A DNA stretch of 64,000 bases. Source: Agreia sp. VKM Ac-1783 (GTDB lineage: Bacteria > Actinomycetota > Actinomycetes > Actinomycetales > Microbacteriaceae). The stretch lies in contig NZ_FXWI01000006.1 of assembly GCF_900177765.1 (NCBI RefSeq), forward strand, positions 62,001 through 126,000, read 5' to 3'. Each line of letters begins with the position of its first letter. Position 1 is the stretch's first letter. Both the position numbers and the translations under genes were made by a program. Positions 31,089 to 40,231 of the stretch are shown piece after piece. Under the pieces are notes generated by a model, which did not search any database, was not told the origin of the DNA, and worked only from the letters and a program-made list of their open reading frames with translations.

Positions 31089-31427
31089 GGAACTCCCGTC
31101 GAACATATGAAAAAAATCGATTCTGCCTGTGGAAAACTTGGCGAATCGAGCCGATGTGTAGAGCGAGCCCGAGCGTCAGCGAACTGGATAACTAAGCTAG
31201 TTGCTGGCATGCAGCGGGGCAAGCTCACTGTATTGACTCTACGCGTGTCATGCACAGGCAGTTTCCACAGTCTGTGGATAATACCTGTCTCTCTGCCCGT
31301 GAGGTTTGACCATTGGCATTCGAGGTCGTAGGTTTAATCAGTTGACTTGTGGCCAATCGGCCCGCACTTACTTTCCCGGTTCCCTGTCGTGCACTCGCGA
31401 TGAGGTCCGGGCCACGGAGAACACACC
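31089..31427. promoter_or_regulatory. dnaA-rpmH divergent promoter region with DnaA boxes
   Basis: This 339-bp gap has no gene and must carry promoters for dnaA (leftward) and rpmH (rightward). It includes a perfect DnaA box at 31273-31281 (TGTGGATAA), a one-mismatch box at 31128-31136 (TGTGGAAAA) and GTTTCCACA at 31261-31269. GGAG at about 31416 serves rpmH. Confidence 0.65.
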
Positions 31428-33839: not shown

Positions 33840-34475
33840 ATGAGCATTCCTGAGAACACCGAAGCCGAGCCACGAGTTGCTGCCGATCTTTTCGGCGACC
33901 GCATCGAGCTTGCGCGAGAATTCACCAACGCGCTGGCGACCCATGGCGAGGAGTACGGACTCATAGGTCCGTTGGAACTCCCCCGCCTGTGGACTCGGCA
34001 CGTTCTGAACTGCGCCCTCGTGGCTCCTTTGCTTCGGCCGGGAACCGTGGGAGATATCGGTAGCGGTGCGGGACTTCCGGGCCTCGTTCTGGCGATCGCT
34101 CGGCCCGATGTTCACTTCACTCTCATCGAGCCGATGGAACGTCGCGTCAAGTGGCTGAACGATCAGGTTGCCTCTCTCAAGCTCGGCAACGTCACCGTTC
34201 TGCGCGACCGCGCCGAAGACGTGCGACTGCCCGAGGGCTTCGATCAGCTCACTGCGCGTGCAGTGAGTGCGTTCTCCAAGCTCATCCCGATGTGCGCTCC
34301 CCTGGTCGTTCCCGGTGGGGAGTTCATCTTGATGAAGGGCATCAACGCAGCGAAAGAGATCGACGCTGCAGAGAAGCAGATTCGACGGTTCAAGCTTCGT
34401 GATGTCCGCGTCATCGAACTCGGCGAGGGAGTTCTGCCTGAAACGACGCGCGTGATCAGGGCCATCGTTTCGTAG
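33840..34475 (+). CDS. rsmG: RsmG, 16S rRNA m7G527 methyltransferase
   Basis: A 211-residue SAM-dependent methyltransferase that modifies G527 (E. coli numbering) in the 16S rRNA decoding region. Motifs are RLWTRHVLNC, the SAM-binding DIGSGAGLPGLVLAIARP and LIEPMERRVKWLN, and the ARAVSAFSKL block. A GTG three bases upstream at 33837 is also possible; neither has a clear ribosome binding site. Loss of RsmG gives low-level streptomycin resistance in other bacteria. A parS site follows 10 bases past the stop. Confidence 0.95.
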   Translation: MSIPENTEAEPRVAADLFGDRIELAREFTNALATHGEEYGLIGPLELPRLWTRHVLNCALVAPLLRPGTVGDIGSGAGLPGLVLAIARPDVHFTLIEPMERRVKWLNDQVASLKLGNVTVLRDRAEDVRLPEGFDQLTARAVSAFSKLIPMCAPLVVPGGEFILMKGINAAKEIDAAEKQIRRFKLRDVRVIELGEGVLPETTRVIRAIVS

Positions 34476-34485
34476 CTTGTAACGG

Positions 34486-34501
34486 TGTTTCACGTGAAAC
34501 A
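34486..34501. other. parS site 1
   Basis: A perfect 16-bp palindrome TGTTTCACGTGAAACA, the bacterial consensus for ParB binding, right after rsmG. ParB spreads from such sites and loads SMC. Confidence 0.95.
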
Positions 34502-35159
34502 TTCGAGTTGCGTCACGACTGTCGCTGGCGGCTGCCAATCGCTGCTGTGTCGACACCGCCCAGCGCTTGGCTCGGAACACCGGAGCGGGAGCCGCCGGGC
34601 CTTCTCATACGCAGCCCGCGGAGCTTGTTGGCAGGGGGCTGATGGTCCGTCGTCGCTCCCCCAATGGTTGCGTTCATCGAACTACGCGGGGAACGAATCG
34701 CCGTCGCGCGCGTTGCGTGGCCGGGTTGGACGCACGCTGCAACTGCAGTCTGGAAGGGCGTGCATACGGGCGATACCGCTTCCAGCTCTCGTCCGGTGGA
34801 GGGATTCACGGGTGTCGGACGTCATCGTCCGTGCGTCGGCCGCGCGAACCAGCTATTGGCGTCGTGGGGTTGATCACTCTGTGATTCCTTTACGTTTGGT
34901 CGACCGCGTCTACCTCGAGTCAGGTGCGAGTTCCCTTCGGCGGCCCACTGAAGGGGCGAGCTTGTTCACATGAAGCTGGTCTTGTGGGGCTGTCGTCAAA
35001 GTCAGATGTGACCACGAATACCGATCGACGATGGCAGTCTCTGTTAGTGCGTTGTCTTGCGGCTGGCAGGCGAACGAGGCCGACTCGGGGGTTCGACCAG
35101 GTCTCCCCCCGTTCTTTACACGTGCACCACTCGCACCACGCAGGGCGCTGCGAAGGCAT

Positions 35160-35400
35160 GGATGCGCCCGCTCACGCACACCACGCACACCACGCACGCA
35201 GGTCGGCGCAAGCACACCACGCACGCACGCCACTCGCGCACACCGGGCGCACGTGCGCCGCGCGCACGCACGCACGCACGCGGGGCACGCTCGCACGCGG
35301 GGGCACGGGTGCCGGGCACGGGCGCCGAGCACGGCACGTACGTAGCCGGGCCACGCACGCACACGTACCGCGCACATACACGCATGCATGCACGCATGGC
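35160..35400. repeat. Low-complexity alternating purine-pyrimidine (CA/CG)-rich tract
   Basis: About 240 bp dominated by CAC, CGCA and GCAC words, including GCGCGCACGCACGCACGCAC at about 35261-35280 and an ATACACGCATGCATGCACGC stretch near 35380. Alternating purine-pyrimidine DNA of this kind tends to adopt Z-form. No fixed repeat unit or spacer pattern is seen. All reading frames give His/Ala/Arg/Thr-rich peptides that are unlikely to be real. Confidence 0.85.
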
Positions 35401-35773
35401 ACATTGAGATTCTTACGCGGAGACTCCCCAGCGAAGACTCTTATGCGGAGAGAACAACGTGATCCGACCGTGCGCCGATAGTGACGGCTTCGATCTGATT
35501 GAAGGTTGGCGAGTGGGCAACGAGTGCCCAGTACAGGCCGTTCTTGCGACCCCGACCCCACGGTGGGTGGTGTCCTCAAGAAGCAGAAGCTGCGATGAAA
35601 GCGGAGGCCACGTCGAGATCGTTCTTGGTGCAAGGGGCGCAGCGTCGGTGCCTACGGCGTGCTGATTCCGCGGTAATTGGGCAGGCGGCGCGTCAGTTCC
35701 TGTGTCTCGAATTTGGGTGCGCCTGGATGAGAGATGTCAGATGTGGGAAGGCCCGATCGAGGGACGGGGCTCC

Positions 35774-35809
35774 CGGATGACCAAGCGGATGACCAAGCGG
35801 ATGACCAAG
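35774..35809. repeat. Three perfect 12-bp tandem repeats
   Basis: The unit CGGATGACCAAG occurs three times head to tail (35774, 35786, 35798), followed by CCGG. It lies in the gene-poor region. The origin is probably slippage; no function is inferred. Confidence 0.85.
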
Positions 35810-36903
35810 CCGGTGGCTGGGACCTGCGTGAGAGTCCCAGGCGGCGCGGGCGCAGGGCGAGAGCGTGCAGCTACGCGGAGGTGGCGAGGTCGGGACTCGG
35901 TGGAAGCGGGCTGATCGAGCCAGTCAGGAGCGTGCAGGAGAGAGTGTCGTGGGAAAGGCGGTCGTCGCGGAGTGTGCGGGAAAGAGAGTCGTCGAAGAGA
36001 TTCTGGACTACAGGAGATGCCGACTATGACAGATTCTCGCAAAGACAAGGCTCGATGCTGGAGGCAAGATGGCGGCGCAGAGGCAGTGAAATGGTTCGTG
36101 AGGGGAGCAGCACTTGTGGTGGATTTGCTGGGTCTCCTCGGGTTCACATTGCCGTGTCTCGATTGGTCGACGCCGATGGTGACTGAATCCGCGGGCTGTG
36201 CTTGGCTCCGGTTCGGGTAGGGACTCGGGATTCGGGATTGTGCGGGGGATGGTGGAGGGTGTCATCGGTGTTGTGCGAGTGTCGTCTGCGAGCTGGCGCG
36301 GTCGACTCGAGGAGAAGTCATCAGGGCGGCGCGGCGCGGGTCCGAAGCGCAGAGGGCGGACGGTGCCGACGTGCCGACGGTGGCTGCTGAGTTGGGAAAG
36401 GCCAGAGTTGGGTTGCCTTCCAGTTCTCAACGCGGATGTACGGGGCCCGCTGGCCGCCGTACTTTGTGGGATTCACGTCAGACGGGAGGCATCGGGCGGG
36501 CGAATCGTCAGGCTGTTGGTTGCGGGCGACGTGAACAAAGAATCGGCTCCTCCAGGCAGGAGCCTGGTCCTCCCCCATGACTTTCAGTGTGATTGCCCCG
36601 CCCGCCCGCCGCCCGCCCGCTCGGTCTGCTGCCGCGCTAGGTCTACGGTCAAGTCCGTTTCAGCAGCCATCGACATGTGGGCGCCGCGAGGAAGAGGCGG
36701 GCGGTCGACCGTCATAATGAGCAGGATTCGTCGAGTGTTGATCCTCGTCCCGACTGCGAAGGCCGAGCTCATTGAAACACAGACAGGTGTGCGGAGAATC
36801 GAGGGCTCTCTCGAACGGCTCCGCGACGAAGGTCGCGTCAAGGAGTCGCGTTCACGCGTGGACCACCTGACGTCAGACACGGGACTCGGTTGCTGGTCCA
36901 CGA

Positions 36904-36919
36904 TGTTTCACGTGAAACA
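36904..36919. other. parS site 2
   Basis: A perfect 16-bp TGTTTCACGTGAAACA, about 330 bp upstream of parA. Confidence 0.95.
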
Positions 36920-36993
36920 TGTGGAGACAGTGGCGAAGGTGCTCCTGAAGAACCATGCCATTCGGCTTACCGCAGTTGATACTAGACAGTCAA

Positions 36994-37087
36994 GAGCGAA
37001 CTCAAACTTTTCGTTCGCTCAAACGGATCCTAAGCGATTTTCGACGATCGCAGATCGGGCGAAAATCGGCCCAAAATCGACCGATTT
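36994..37087. promoter_or_regulatory. Inverted-repeat cluster upstream of parA
   Basis: A perfect 8-bp inverted repeat GAGCGAAC/GTTCGCTC (36994-37001 and 37013-37020) is followed by CGATTTTCG (37035-37043) and its inverted copy CGAAAATCG (37060-37068), then AAATCG/CGATTT (37074-37079 and 37082-37087). The stretch is AT-richer than its surroundings. By place it may be an operator for parAB autoregulation by ParA or another factor; this is inference. Confidence 0.5.
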
Positions 37088-37249
37088 CTGTCTCAACTTA
37101 GAGTTTCCAGCGACGGCGGGTACTTTGGTCTAGGGACGATTTCGTTTCGACAGACGGTCGCTTGATTGACGACCGGTGTCTTCCATCCTCTCCCCCGGCC
37201 TCGGGTTTCTTCGGGTCGCCAACGGAACTCAGCAAGTCAGGATTTGTGG

Positions 37250-38176
37250 ATGTCAACGGAACCAATTGGCGGAGGCGCATCGTTCGATGCTTCGACGCCC
37301 CTGGCTCGTGAGCTGGCCGACCTCTCGAATCGGCGGCGCAACTTCGCAAAGCGTGTAGTTCCGCTCCCGGAGACGACGCGGGTATTCACGGTCGCCAATC
37401 AGAAGGGAGGGGTGGGCAAGACCACGACGACGGTCAACCTCGCCGCGGCCCTCGCTCGCAGCGGTGCTCGCGTTCTCGTGATCGATCTCGACCCGCAGGG
37501 CAACGCGTCGACTGCTCTGGGCGTCGAACATCGCGCCGACACTCCGAGCGTGTACGACGCCCTCGTTCGCGACGAGCCCATGGCCGACCTCGTACAGAAG
37601 AGCCCGGAGTTCGACACACTCTTCTGTGTGCCGGCGACGATCGATCTCGCCGGTGCCGAAATCGAACTCGTACCCATGGTCGCCCGCGAGCAGCGCTTGC
37701 GGACAAGCGTTGACACGTATCTGCAGGAGTCATTCGACGCGGGGCTCGCGTACCACTACGTGTTCATCGACTGCCCGCCCTCACTCGGACTCCTCACCAT
37801 CAACGCGTTCGTCGCCGCGCATGAGGTTCTCATTCCGATCCAGTGCGAGTACTACGCGCTCGAGGGTCTGAGTCAACTGCTGAAGAACATCCAGCTCATC
37901 GAACGTCACCTGAACCCCACGCTCGCGGTCTCGACGATTCTGCTCACGATGTACGACGGCCGCACCCGCCTCGCCTTTCAGGTCGCCGAGGATGTCCGCA
38001 GTCACTTCCCGGACCAGACCCTTGCGGCGGTCATCCCCCGCTCGGTGCGAGTGTCGGAGGCCCCCAGCTATGGTCAGACCGTGATCAGCTTCGACCCCAA
38101 TTCACCCGGCGCACTCTCGTATTTCGAGGCCGCAGCCGAGATCGCAGACAGAGGAGCGCCCACCGATGGCAACTAA
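37250..38176 (+). CDS. parA: ParA/Soj chromosome-partitioning ATPase
   Basis: A 308-residue deviant Walker ATPase that, with ParB, moves the replicated origins apart. The core starts at VFTVANQKGGVGKTTTTVNL with both lysines of the deviant Walker A (about Lys52 and Lys57), then VIDLDPQGNAS and FIDCPPSLGLLT. A 40-residue N-terminal extension precedes it, common in Actinobacteria. I chose the ATG at 37250 (MSTEPIGGG); the reading frame stays open a further 28 codons upstream, so the start is not certain. It overlaps parB by 11 bases. Confidence 0.96.
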   Translation: MSTEPIGGGASFDASTPLARELADLSNRRRNFAKRVVPLPETTRVFTVANQKGGVGKTTTTVNLAAALARSGARVLVIDLDPQGNASTALGVEHRADTPSVYDALVRDEPMADLVQKSPEFDTLFCVPATIDLAGAEIELVPMVAREQRLRTSVDTYLQESFDAGLAYHYVFIDCPPSLGLLTINAFVAAHEVLIPIQCEYYALEGLSQLLKNIQLIERHLNPTLAVSTILLTMYDGRTRLAFQVAEDVRSHFPDQTLAAVIPRSVRVSEAPSYGQTVISFDPNSPGALSYFEAAAEIADRGAPTDGN

Positions 38177-39146
38177 GAAGAGAACCGGCCTCGGTCGAGG
38201 CATCGGCGCCCTCATTCCTACCAATGACGCGGTCGATTCCGAGGGGCGTCCTGGAGTTCGACCGGTGGACGTGTTCTTCGCCGATCGAGGAGACGCTGCT
38301 ACTCCCCCTCAGACAGACCTGATCGAGGTGCCCGGAGCGCGGCTTGCACACTTGGATCCCGCAGACATCGTGCCCAATGCAAAGCAGCCGCGGGCAGTCT
38401 TCAAAGAAGACGATCTCGCTGAACTCGTCGTGTCGATCCGGGAGATCGGCGTGCTTCAGCCCGTCGTTGTTCGGCCACTCCCCCTCGTTGCCGGCGAGAA
38501 GCCCAAGTACGAGTTGGTCATGGGAGAGAGGCGGCTTCGGGCGACGCGGCAGGTGGGCCTGGAGAGCATTCCGGCGATCGTCAAAGACACGGCCGACGAG
38601 AACATGCTTCGTGACGCCCTGCTCGAGAACCTCCACCGGTCTGAGCTCAACCCTCTCGAAGAGGCATCCGCGTACCAGCAGCTTCTGAGCGACTTCGGAA
38701 TCACCCAGGATGAGCTGGCGACACGGATCGGTCGGTCGCGACCACAGATCACGAATACCATTCGGCTGCTTCGCCTGCCCGCCGCGGTTCAGAAACGTGT
38801 CGCTGCGGGCGTTCTCAGCGCAGGGCACGCGCGCGCGGTGCTCTCTGCCGGAGATGCCGAGGCGATGACACGTCTCGCCGACAAGATCGTCAACGAAGAT
38901 CTATCTGTTCGTGCCGCGGAGGCTGCGGCGAGTGCTGCCCCGAAGCCGGCTAAGGCGAAGACCGTCGCTGGCGCGAAGCGCGGTCACCTCGATGAGATCG
39001 CCGACCGGCTCGGGGATCGGCTGGACACCCGCGTCAAGGTGAGCCTCGGTCGGTCCAAAGGTCAGATCGTCATTGATTTCGCTACGATCGGTGACCTGAA
39101 CCGCATCCTGGGCGAGTTGGGCGACAAGGGCTTCGGTCGCCCCTGA
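38166..39146 (+). CDS. parB: ParB/Spo0J chromosome-partitioning CTPase
   Basis: A 326-residue protein that loads at parS, clamps and spreads on DNA, and recruits SMC. Its N-terminal CTP-binding domain has PNAKQPRAVFKEDDLAELV and the GERRLRAT box (about residues 121-128). The central helix-turn-helix (LSDFGITQDELATRIGRSRP) reads parS, and the C-terminal dimerisation domain starts after an Ala/Lys linker. It opens with the Lys/Arg-rich KKRTGLGRGIGALI motif used for ParA contact. Four perfect parS sites lie within 5 kb, two of them just downstream. Confidence 0.97.
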   Translation: MATKKRTGLGRGIGALIPTNDAVDSEGRPGVRPVDVFFADRGDAATPPQTDLIEVPGARLAHLDPADIVPNAKQPRAVFKEDDLAELVVSIREIGVLQPVVVRPLPLVAGEKPKYELVMGERRLRATRQVGLESIPAIVKDTADENMLRDALLENLHRSELNPLEEASAYQQLLSDFGITQDELATRIGRSRPQITNTIRLLRLPAAVQKRVAAGVLSAGHARAVLSAGDAEAMTRLADKIVNEDLSVRAAEAAASAAPKPAKAKTVAGAKRGHLDEIADRLGDRLDTRVKVSLGRSKGQIVIDFATIGDLNRILGELGDKGFGRP

Positions 39147-39185
39147 GGCCAGCCTGCAGCGGCCCCGCGGCCGCGAGATACGCAA

Positions 39186-39217
39186 AACCCCGATGTTTCA
39201 CGTGAAACATCGGGGTT
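39186..39217. terminator. 32-bp perfect palindrome containing parS 3, likely parB terminator
   Basis: The parS core is extended on both sides to a perfect 32-bp palindrome, with arms AACCCCGATGTTTCAC and GTGAAACATCGGGGTT, 39 bases past the parB stop. As RNA it would make a strong GC-capped hairpin. The following bases GCGTCGTT are only weakly T-rich. Termination is inferred; the DNA palindrome is certain. Confidence 0.6.
39194..39209. other. parS site 3
   Basis: A perfect 16-bp TGTTTCACGTGAAACA inside a larger palindrome downstream of parB. Confidence 0.95.
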
Positions 39218-39239
39218 GCGTCGTTAACGGCGAAGGCAA

Positions 39240-39255
39240 TGTTTCACGTGAAACA
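39240..39255. other. parS site 4
   Basis: A perfect 16-bp TGTTTCACGTGAAACA, 46 bp from site 3 (start to start) and 13 bases from the end of the leftward Ddl-like gene. Confidence 0.95.
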
Positions 39256-39268
39256 TGCCGGTTGCGGG

Positions 39269-40231
39269 TCAGGCAGAATCGTCTGCGATTGCCTTCTCGC
39301 CGAGAGCCTCGTAGACCTCGCCGAGGTTGAGCCCCGCCGCCTGAATGGCCTGCGGTACCAGGGAGGTCTCCGTCAGCCCGGGAAGTACGTTGGCTTCGAG
39401 GAACCAGACAACGCCGTCGTCGTCGATGATGAGGTCGACGCGCGATATGTGTCGCAGGGCGAGCGTCTTGTGAATGGAGAGCGCGGTGGACTGAGCCAAC
39501 TCGGTGATCTCGGCCGATAGACGCGCGGGAGTGAAGAAGCGGGTCTCCCCCGCGTTGTATCGCGCGTCGTATCCGTAGACGCCGAGGCGGGGCTCGATCT
39601 CGACAGCGGGCAATGCGAATGGACCGTCGCCCGTGTCGATGATGCCGACAGAGATCTCGGTGCCCGATACGCGGCGCTCGATCAACGCGACGTCGCCGTA
39701 GGTGTAGGCCTCGACGACTCCGCGACGCAGATCATCGGTGTCTGCGACCATCGAGACTCCCTGAGCCGACCCACCCTGGGCTGGCTTCACGACGAGGTCG
39801 GTGCCGAACTGACTGGCGACGCGATCGAGAACCTGTGCCGAGCCCAGTTCGCGGAACGTGTCGCGAGGAAGCGTGATGGACTCAGGCGTGGAGAATCCGG
39901 CGCGCGCCACGATGACCTTGGCCGTGGGCTTGTGCCAGGCCAGCCGACTGGAGCCGGGCTGAGAGCCGACGTAGGTGATCTCGAGCGCATCCAGGAGCGC
40001 TCTCAGAGCGCCGTCCTCACCGCTCGCACCGTGGAGGGCCGGCCAGACGACGTCGGGACGGTTGGACTCGAGGTAGGACAGGAGTGTGGCATCCGGCTCC
40101 CGCAGAATGACGGTGTGTCCACGATCGAGCAGGCCGTCGGCCACGCGGCGACCAGAGCGAAGAGAGACGTCGCGCTCGTGCGAGATGCCTCCGGCCAGAA
40201 CGACAACGGTACGAGAGGTCACGGTATTCAT
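39269..40231 (-). CDS. D-alanine--D-alanine ligase family protein (ATP-grasp)
   Basis: A 320-residue ATP-grasp ligase. Motifs of D-Ala-D-Ala ligases are present: N-terminal VVVLAGGISHERDVSLRSG, HGASGEDGALRALLDA, the phosphate loop KPAQGGSAQGV and the metal-binding R-V-D-L-I-I-D with W-F-L-E-A-N-V-L-P-G-L-T. It would join two D-alanines for the peptidoglycan stem. Second Ddl-like copies with different roles exist in Actinobacteria, so I do not give a symbol. It follows the aminotransferase by 2 bases and ends 13 bases from parS 4. Confidence 0.88.
   Translation of the reverse strand: MNTVTSRTVVVLAGGISHERDVSLRSGRRVADGLLDRGHTVILREPDATLLSYLESNRPDVVWPALHGASGEDGALRALLDALEITYVGSQPGSSRLAWHKPTAKVIVARAGFSTPESITLPRDTFRELGSAQVLDRVASQFGTDLVVKPAQGGSAQGVSMVADTDDLRRGVVEAYTYGDVALIERRVSGTEISVGIIDTGDGPFALPAVEIEPRLGVYGYDARYNAGETRFFTPARLSAEITELAQSTALSIHKTLALRHISRVDLIIDDDGVVWFLEANVLPGLTETSLVPQAIQAAGLNLGEVYEALGEKAIADDSA

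Follow-up and report, generated by a model that had tools for sequence, protein, structure and literature searches.

The inverted repeats upstream of parA at 36994-37087 of the window, by which the whole 64 kb stretch of DNA analysed is meant, probably lie within a promoter-operator module of parAB that is shared by seven species of the genus and bound by a putative regulator. The genes and sites that surround this module are:

dnaA, within the 64 kb window, minus strand.
31428 (start), a gene that we take to be rpmH.
After rpmH, in order: yidC, a jag-like gene and rsmG.
36904..36919, parS 2, TGTTTCACGTGAAACA, an exact match and the upstream neighbour of the parAB module.
37250..38176, plus strand, parA, 308 amino acids counted from the ATG, Pfam-confirmed.
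38166..39146, plus strand, parB, overlapping parA by 11 bp, Pfam-confirmed.

The score of the jag-like gene was under the cut-off of the model. The top-scoring named relatives of ParA are organisms that we take, from their names, to be Microbacteriaceae, which makes this family the probable source of the window. The parS word searched for is quoted in the available portion of PMC2346475. A position between parS 2 and the ATG of parA, as the earlier note had given for the repeats, was borne out. The distance from the rsmG stop to the parA ATG is approximately 2.8 kb in this genome (G000) and just 0.38 kb in G006, with values of 1.4-2.9 kb in the remaining five carriers of the module. The approximately 2.4 kb running from parS 1 to parS 2 (34502-36903) contains CACG-type and 12-bp tandem repeats and yielded DNA matches to other species of the genus at parS only. 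Two further exact parS sites, 46 bp apart from start to start, are found directly 3' of parB at 39194-39255.

Direct reading of the sequence confirmed the presence of three perfect inverted repeats within the 94 bp at 36994-37087, and a further overlapping 7-bp inverted pair occurs at 37063-37087. For footprinting, the region upstream of parA was aligned across seven genomes of the genus (G000, G001, G002, G003, G004, G006 and G007). The observed and predicted elements of the interval are as follows, the counts referring to these seven species:

36989..36993, minus strand, TTGAC (GTCAA on the plus strand), invariant in 7/7, its spacing to block 1 constant.
36994..37020, perfect hairpin GAGCGAAC-N11-GTTCGCTC, species-specific.
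37008..37041, plus strand, block 1, a 34-bp element with 30/34 columns invariant in 7/7 species.
37035..37068, long perfect inverted repeat CGATTTTCG-N16-CGAAAATCG (CGATTTT/AAAATCG), its left arm overlapping the end of block 1.
37042..37068, spacer, 0/27 columns invariant, gapless in all seven sequences.
37069..37092, a dyad of 24 bp, imperfectly symmetric around 37080.5, with the core AAATCG-AC-CGATTT, lying near position -52 relative to the predicted transcription start.
37074-37087, short perfect inverted repeat AAATCG-AC-CGATTT.
37098..37103, plus strand, TTAGAG, predicted to be the -35 hexamer for parAB, identical in 6/7.
37121..37126, plus strand, TACTTT, predicted to be the -10 hexamer and separated from the -35 by 17 bp, identical in 7/7.
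37133..37249, plus strand, predicted untranslated parA leader, its start near 37133 placed from the -10.
37239-37242, plus strand, AGGA, the likely ribosome-binding site of parA.

The heptamer CGATTTT/AAAATCG occurs five times in the window, with three of the occurrences inside 37035-37079. The 6-mer CGATTT/AAATCG, which is not among the eight top 6-mers, occurs 17 times, five of them inside 37035-37142. A total of 61 perfect inverted repeats with arms of at least 8 bp and gaps of at most 20 bp were found in the window, compared with 23-36 in five tile-shuffled copies. When 94-bp windows were counted at a step of 10, 13 contained at least three repeats of which two had arms of at least 8 bp, against 0, 7, 0, 0 and 1 in the same shuffled copies. 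The cluster before parA is therefore real and unusual, exceeding chance in arm length, yet it is not unique in the window.

The repeats fared unevenly when compared between species. Only 20 of 134 fourfold-degenerate sites of parA were invariant in the same seven genomes, so that positions free of constraint can be regarded as largely diverged. The hairpin is perfect in G000 only: its left arm is kept in 1/7 and its right arm, GTTCGCTC, with its last base in 2/7, while the constant GTTCGCT within the right arm belongs to block 1. The long repeat likewise has both arms in G000 only (left arm CGATTTTCG in 4/7, right arm CGAAAATCG in 2/7). The short dyad AAATCG-AC-CGATTT is exact in 2/7, and four single half-sites of the CGATTT type are kept in 5, 2, 3 and 3 of 7. 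Strong folds were obtained for the region of the long repeat in G000 (z -3.0) and G003 (z -4.1), and for this region together with the short dyad in G003 (z -3.3) and G002 (z -2.2). Pairing of the long repeat with its own arms gave a mean of -8.4 kcal/mol, compared with -8.1 kcal/mol when arms were swapped between species; since own and swapped arms pair alike, there is no sign of selection on this repeat. For the hairpin, as for the long CGATTTT/AAAATCG repeat, the likely reading is a chance or recent feature of this strain superimposed on the module. An operator upstream of parA, as had been suggested, holds in its place and its kind, the region being conserved and promoter-operator-like, with the hairpin and long repeat discounted as its carriers; footprinting lends the short dyad moderate support and shows neither of the other two to be kept in relatives.

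Block 1 is followed at an exact distance of 88 bp, from start to start, by block 2 in 7/7 genomes, and the alignment is gapless in all sequences from 36989 to 37132. The constant length of the 27-bp spacer across the seven genomes is, taken alone, weak evidence. parS 2 lies 79-164 bp before block 1, from start to start, in all seven species, and the length from the rsmG stop to block 1 varies between species from 140 to 2641 bp. Comparison of this rsmG-to-block-1 DNA between species (E 1e-3) returned matches at parS sites and at a repeat family common to G002 and G004, in both of which diverged internal repeats occupy the interval; five parS are found there in G002. What is noteworthy in block 1 is that it stands isolated in drifting DNA, past parS 2 and ahead of the promoter, that it is long and that its spacing is constant.

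Searches with two overlapping 21-mers from block 1, allowing at most 3 mismatches, returned one site each in seven of eight genomes of the genus and no second copy of the kind expected for a regulon-type site in any of the eight. At this stringency block 1 is not a common regulon word. No site was found in G005, the eighth member, from which block 1 is absent; its ParA is more distant (80% identity) and two parS lie close upstream. Beyond the genus, an nhmmer search of 110 parA loci gave, among the matches listed, extra-genus matches that cover the parA start only. A matrix scan of the 103 non-carrier loci reached a best score of -5.1, under that of the best shuffled control (3.2), where the seven sites score 60.8-65.6. 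No exact match to the core pattern of the element was present in viral contigs, and the element was without a match in plasmids. Long two-fold symmetry is not evident in block 1, although by eye it contains a short and imperfect dyad, TTCGTT-N6-AACGGA. For the binding site of a regulator, such weak symmetry together with the lack of a second copy would be unusual.

Block 2 covers approximately 37096-37134, an interval with 34 of 39 columns invariant in the seven genomes. Promoters of the sigma-A type have the consensus -10 TANNNT, with the -35 situated 16-18 bp upstream. The spacing of TTAGAG-N17-TACTTT fits this type and its -35 is a poor match to TTGACA; it was missing from the list returned by a promoter scan, the consensus of which is of the E. 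coli type. The counterpart in G005 reads TTAGAG-N17-TAACTT, and hexamers starting with TAC or TAAC were seen by eye near the same place at several other parA loci. As judged from sequence, block 2 is likely to hold a housekeeping-type parAB promoter at 37098-37126.

The distance from block 2 to the parA ATG is 154, 155 or 156 bp among the seven species. Lengths of this kind indicate that the leader does not extend the ParA reading frame, in keeping with a start at the ATG at 37250. The segment 37230-37260, comprising the likely ribosome-binding site and the first codons of parA, is invariant in 30 of 31 columns across the seven species, even at synonymous sites, a hint that the start of translation may be constrained at the level of RNA.

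Between the two blocks lies the imperfect dyad. The number of Watson-Crick pairs, of 11 possible, is 8 in G000, 9 in G001, 10 in G002, 8 in G007, 8 in G004, 9 in G003 and 3 in G006, and the total of 55/77 is the highest among 1035 dyad centres tested over the module. The symmetry is thus kept in six of the seven species and almost gone from G006. Eight of its 24 columns (37069-37092) are invariant in the seven genomes. Pairing was observed in 76.6% of cells, compared with 26-62% when the partner strand was slid, and there was no excess over column shuffles, of which 154/500 reached the percentage paired and 104/500 the covariation score. There is modest evidence for the dyad as a candidate site for a dimer.

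A coding frame through the module was considered and rejected: the single long open frame on the plus strand is interrupted in both G006 and G007, and substitutions are without clear codon phase (238, 249, 287). No Rfam match was obtained in 34400-39400 at E values up to 1, and a search for a structured RNA leader gave no conserved covarying fold, with 3 of 67 pairs changed on both sides. Fold z-scores for the module ranged from -1.28 to +0.19 on the plus strand and from -2.71 to -0.10 on the minus strand, which folds somewhat better than shuffles in G003 (z -2.71) and G006 (z -1.83). The lack of an Rfam match, the broken frame and the weak folds of the plus strand favour action at the level of DNA. 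A sequence-specific DNA-binding protein, probably not ParA, would bind the dyad in dimeric form, and either this protein or a second one would occupy block 1; once bound, these proteins may set the level or the timing of parAB transcription. The fixed spacing between blocks 1 and 2 would fit sites that cooperate on one defined face of the helix.

The degree of conservation was set against that of the dnaA-rpmH intergenic region (31107-31427), where 277/321 columns are invariant in six genomes, G006 having been dropped from this control as its contig ends inside dnaA. In the same six genomes the corresponding counts are 105/159 for 36989-37147 and 32/34 for block 1. The control is the more conserved, and strong constraint on regulatory regions near this origin is therefore not special to parA. 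The dnaA-rpmH region also carries the words TTATCCACAG and TTTTCCACAG. On the whole the module resembles a rather ordinary control region, apart from a single unassigned element that is long and single-copy.

Several other explanations were weighed against a promoter-operator module with a putative regulator. Block 1 might separate two divergent promoters, one directing parAB rightward and the other, with TTGAC at 36993-36989 on the minus strand, directing a non-coding transcript leftward across parS 2. The TTGAC is invariant in 7/7 and a TA step follows 18 bp past the hexamer in 7/7; however, none of the seven hexamers at the 18-bp register ends in T, leaving no good -10, and five conserved bases plus two amount to little evidence. 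To the left, moreover, between-species matches are confined to parS apart from the repeats of G002 and G004. A leftward promoter is considered unlikely.

Alternatively, the repeats may constitute an operator for the products of the operon itself, with ParA, or ParB spreading from parS 2, repressing parAB through the CGATTT half-sites. The presence of parS 2 close upstream in 7/7, 79-164 bp before block 1, would suit ParB, and for mycobacteria it was proposed, in the portion of PMC2346475 available, that ParB at a promoter-near parS may affect the expression of gidB and parA. The half-sites, though, are poorly kept (5, 2, 3 and 3 of 7), and the N-terminal extension of ParA (approximately 42 residues) has no match to a DNA-binding domain. 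In Pfam and NCBIfam no match to the extension was found, none of the listed matches starting before residue 36. Because the extension matches no domain, ParA is unlikely to be the regulator, and chromosomal ParAs are described as lacking the DNA-binding domain in the accessible text of PMC7022226. Autoregulation by ParA through this extension, raised in the earlier note, was judged unlikely on the same ground, the extension being without a Pfam or NCBIfam match and the domain that class Ia systems require being undetected. Repression by ParA or ParB is on balance decidedly improbable.

A bolder reading of block 1, to which a very low probability is assigned, would have it as the site of a dedicated, undescribed factor that ties transcription of parAB to the state of the neighbouring centromere. 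Such a factor could form a roadblock, preventing ParB clamps that load at parS 2 from reaching the parAB promoter, or a switch released on their arrival. This would fit block 1, of which one copy was found per genome and which in 7/7 stands at a constant distance from the promoter, with parS 2 on its other side.

Control at the level of RNA was also contemplated, whereby block 1 would be transcribed from an upstream promoter and would pair with the start of parA, from its ribosome-binding site into the first codons. In the RNAalifold prediction block 1 is paired with 37239-37260, the pairs being kept in 7/7, the energy of the duplex between block 1 and the parA start is -17.7 to -18.9 kcal/mol, and 30/31 columns of 37230-37260 are invariant. 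Both sides are invariant at those pairs, hence there is no covariation, and shuffled sequences reach the duplex energy in approximately 3-7% of trials; the conserved promoter, furthermore, sits downstream of block 1. Very little probability indeed is left to this mechanism. That the whole region is promoter DNA with accidental repeats is scarcely credible: chance is likely for two of the repeats, namely the hairpin and the long CGATTTT/AAAATCG one, neither of them kept and the latter pairing equally well with swapped arms, but it leaves block 1, the -10 region and the rank of the dyad without explanation, and the conservation of both blocks argues against it.

How parAB transcription is controlled on chromosomes has been described for few model systems, and a near-invariant site of 34 bp provides concrete bait with which to look for a protein that regulates chromosome segregation. 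The literature searched, the coverage of which is partial, many subscription papers being outside its scope, yielded no account of an element of this kind in Microbacteriaceae.

Plasmid par operators of class Ia include those of P1 ParA and F SopA. The module resembles these in that sites upstream of parA are proposed to control the par operon, and differs from them in that class Ia control depends on a DNA-binding domain at the N-terminus of ParA (PMC7022226, in the sections available), whereas no such domain is detected here. The parAB promoter of Streptomyces is a second parallel, an actinobacterial parAB under regulated transcription that is there whiA-dependent in sporulation (PMC3781837, accessible text). 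In S. venezuelae, according to the same partial text, ChIP-seq was without WhiA binding at parAB and the dependence was called indirect (PMC3781837). The WhiA word GACAC/GTGTC, as given in that portion of the paper, is absent by direct reading from both block 1 and the dyad in this genome, and one GTGTC occurs in the parA leader near 37176. The mycobacterial parAB loci of M. bovis BCG and M. smegmatis are alike in their origin-near gidB(rsmG)-parA-parB order, in a promoter-near parS and in having par promoters of their own (PMC2346475, available portion). At these loci the gidB and parA codons overlap and promoter activity was located in the 3' end of gidB, as reported in the accessible part of PMC2346475. 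By comparison with that arrangement, as far as the available text of PMC2346475 describes it, rsmG and parA are here separated by 1.4-2.9 kb (0.38 kb in G006), and a dedicated distal element has its place in the gap.
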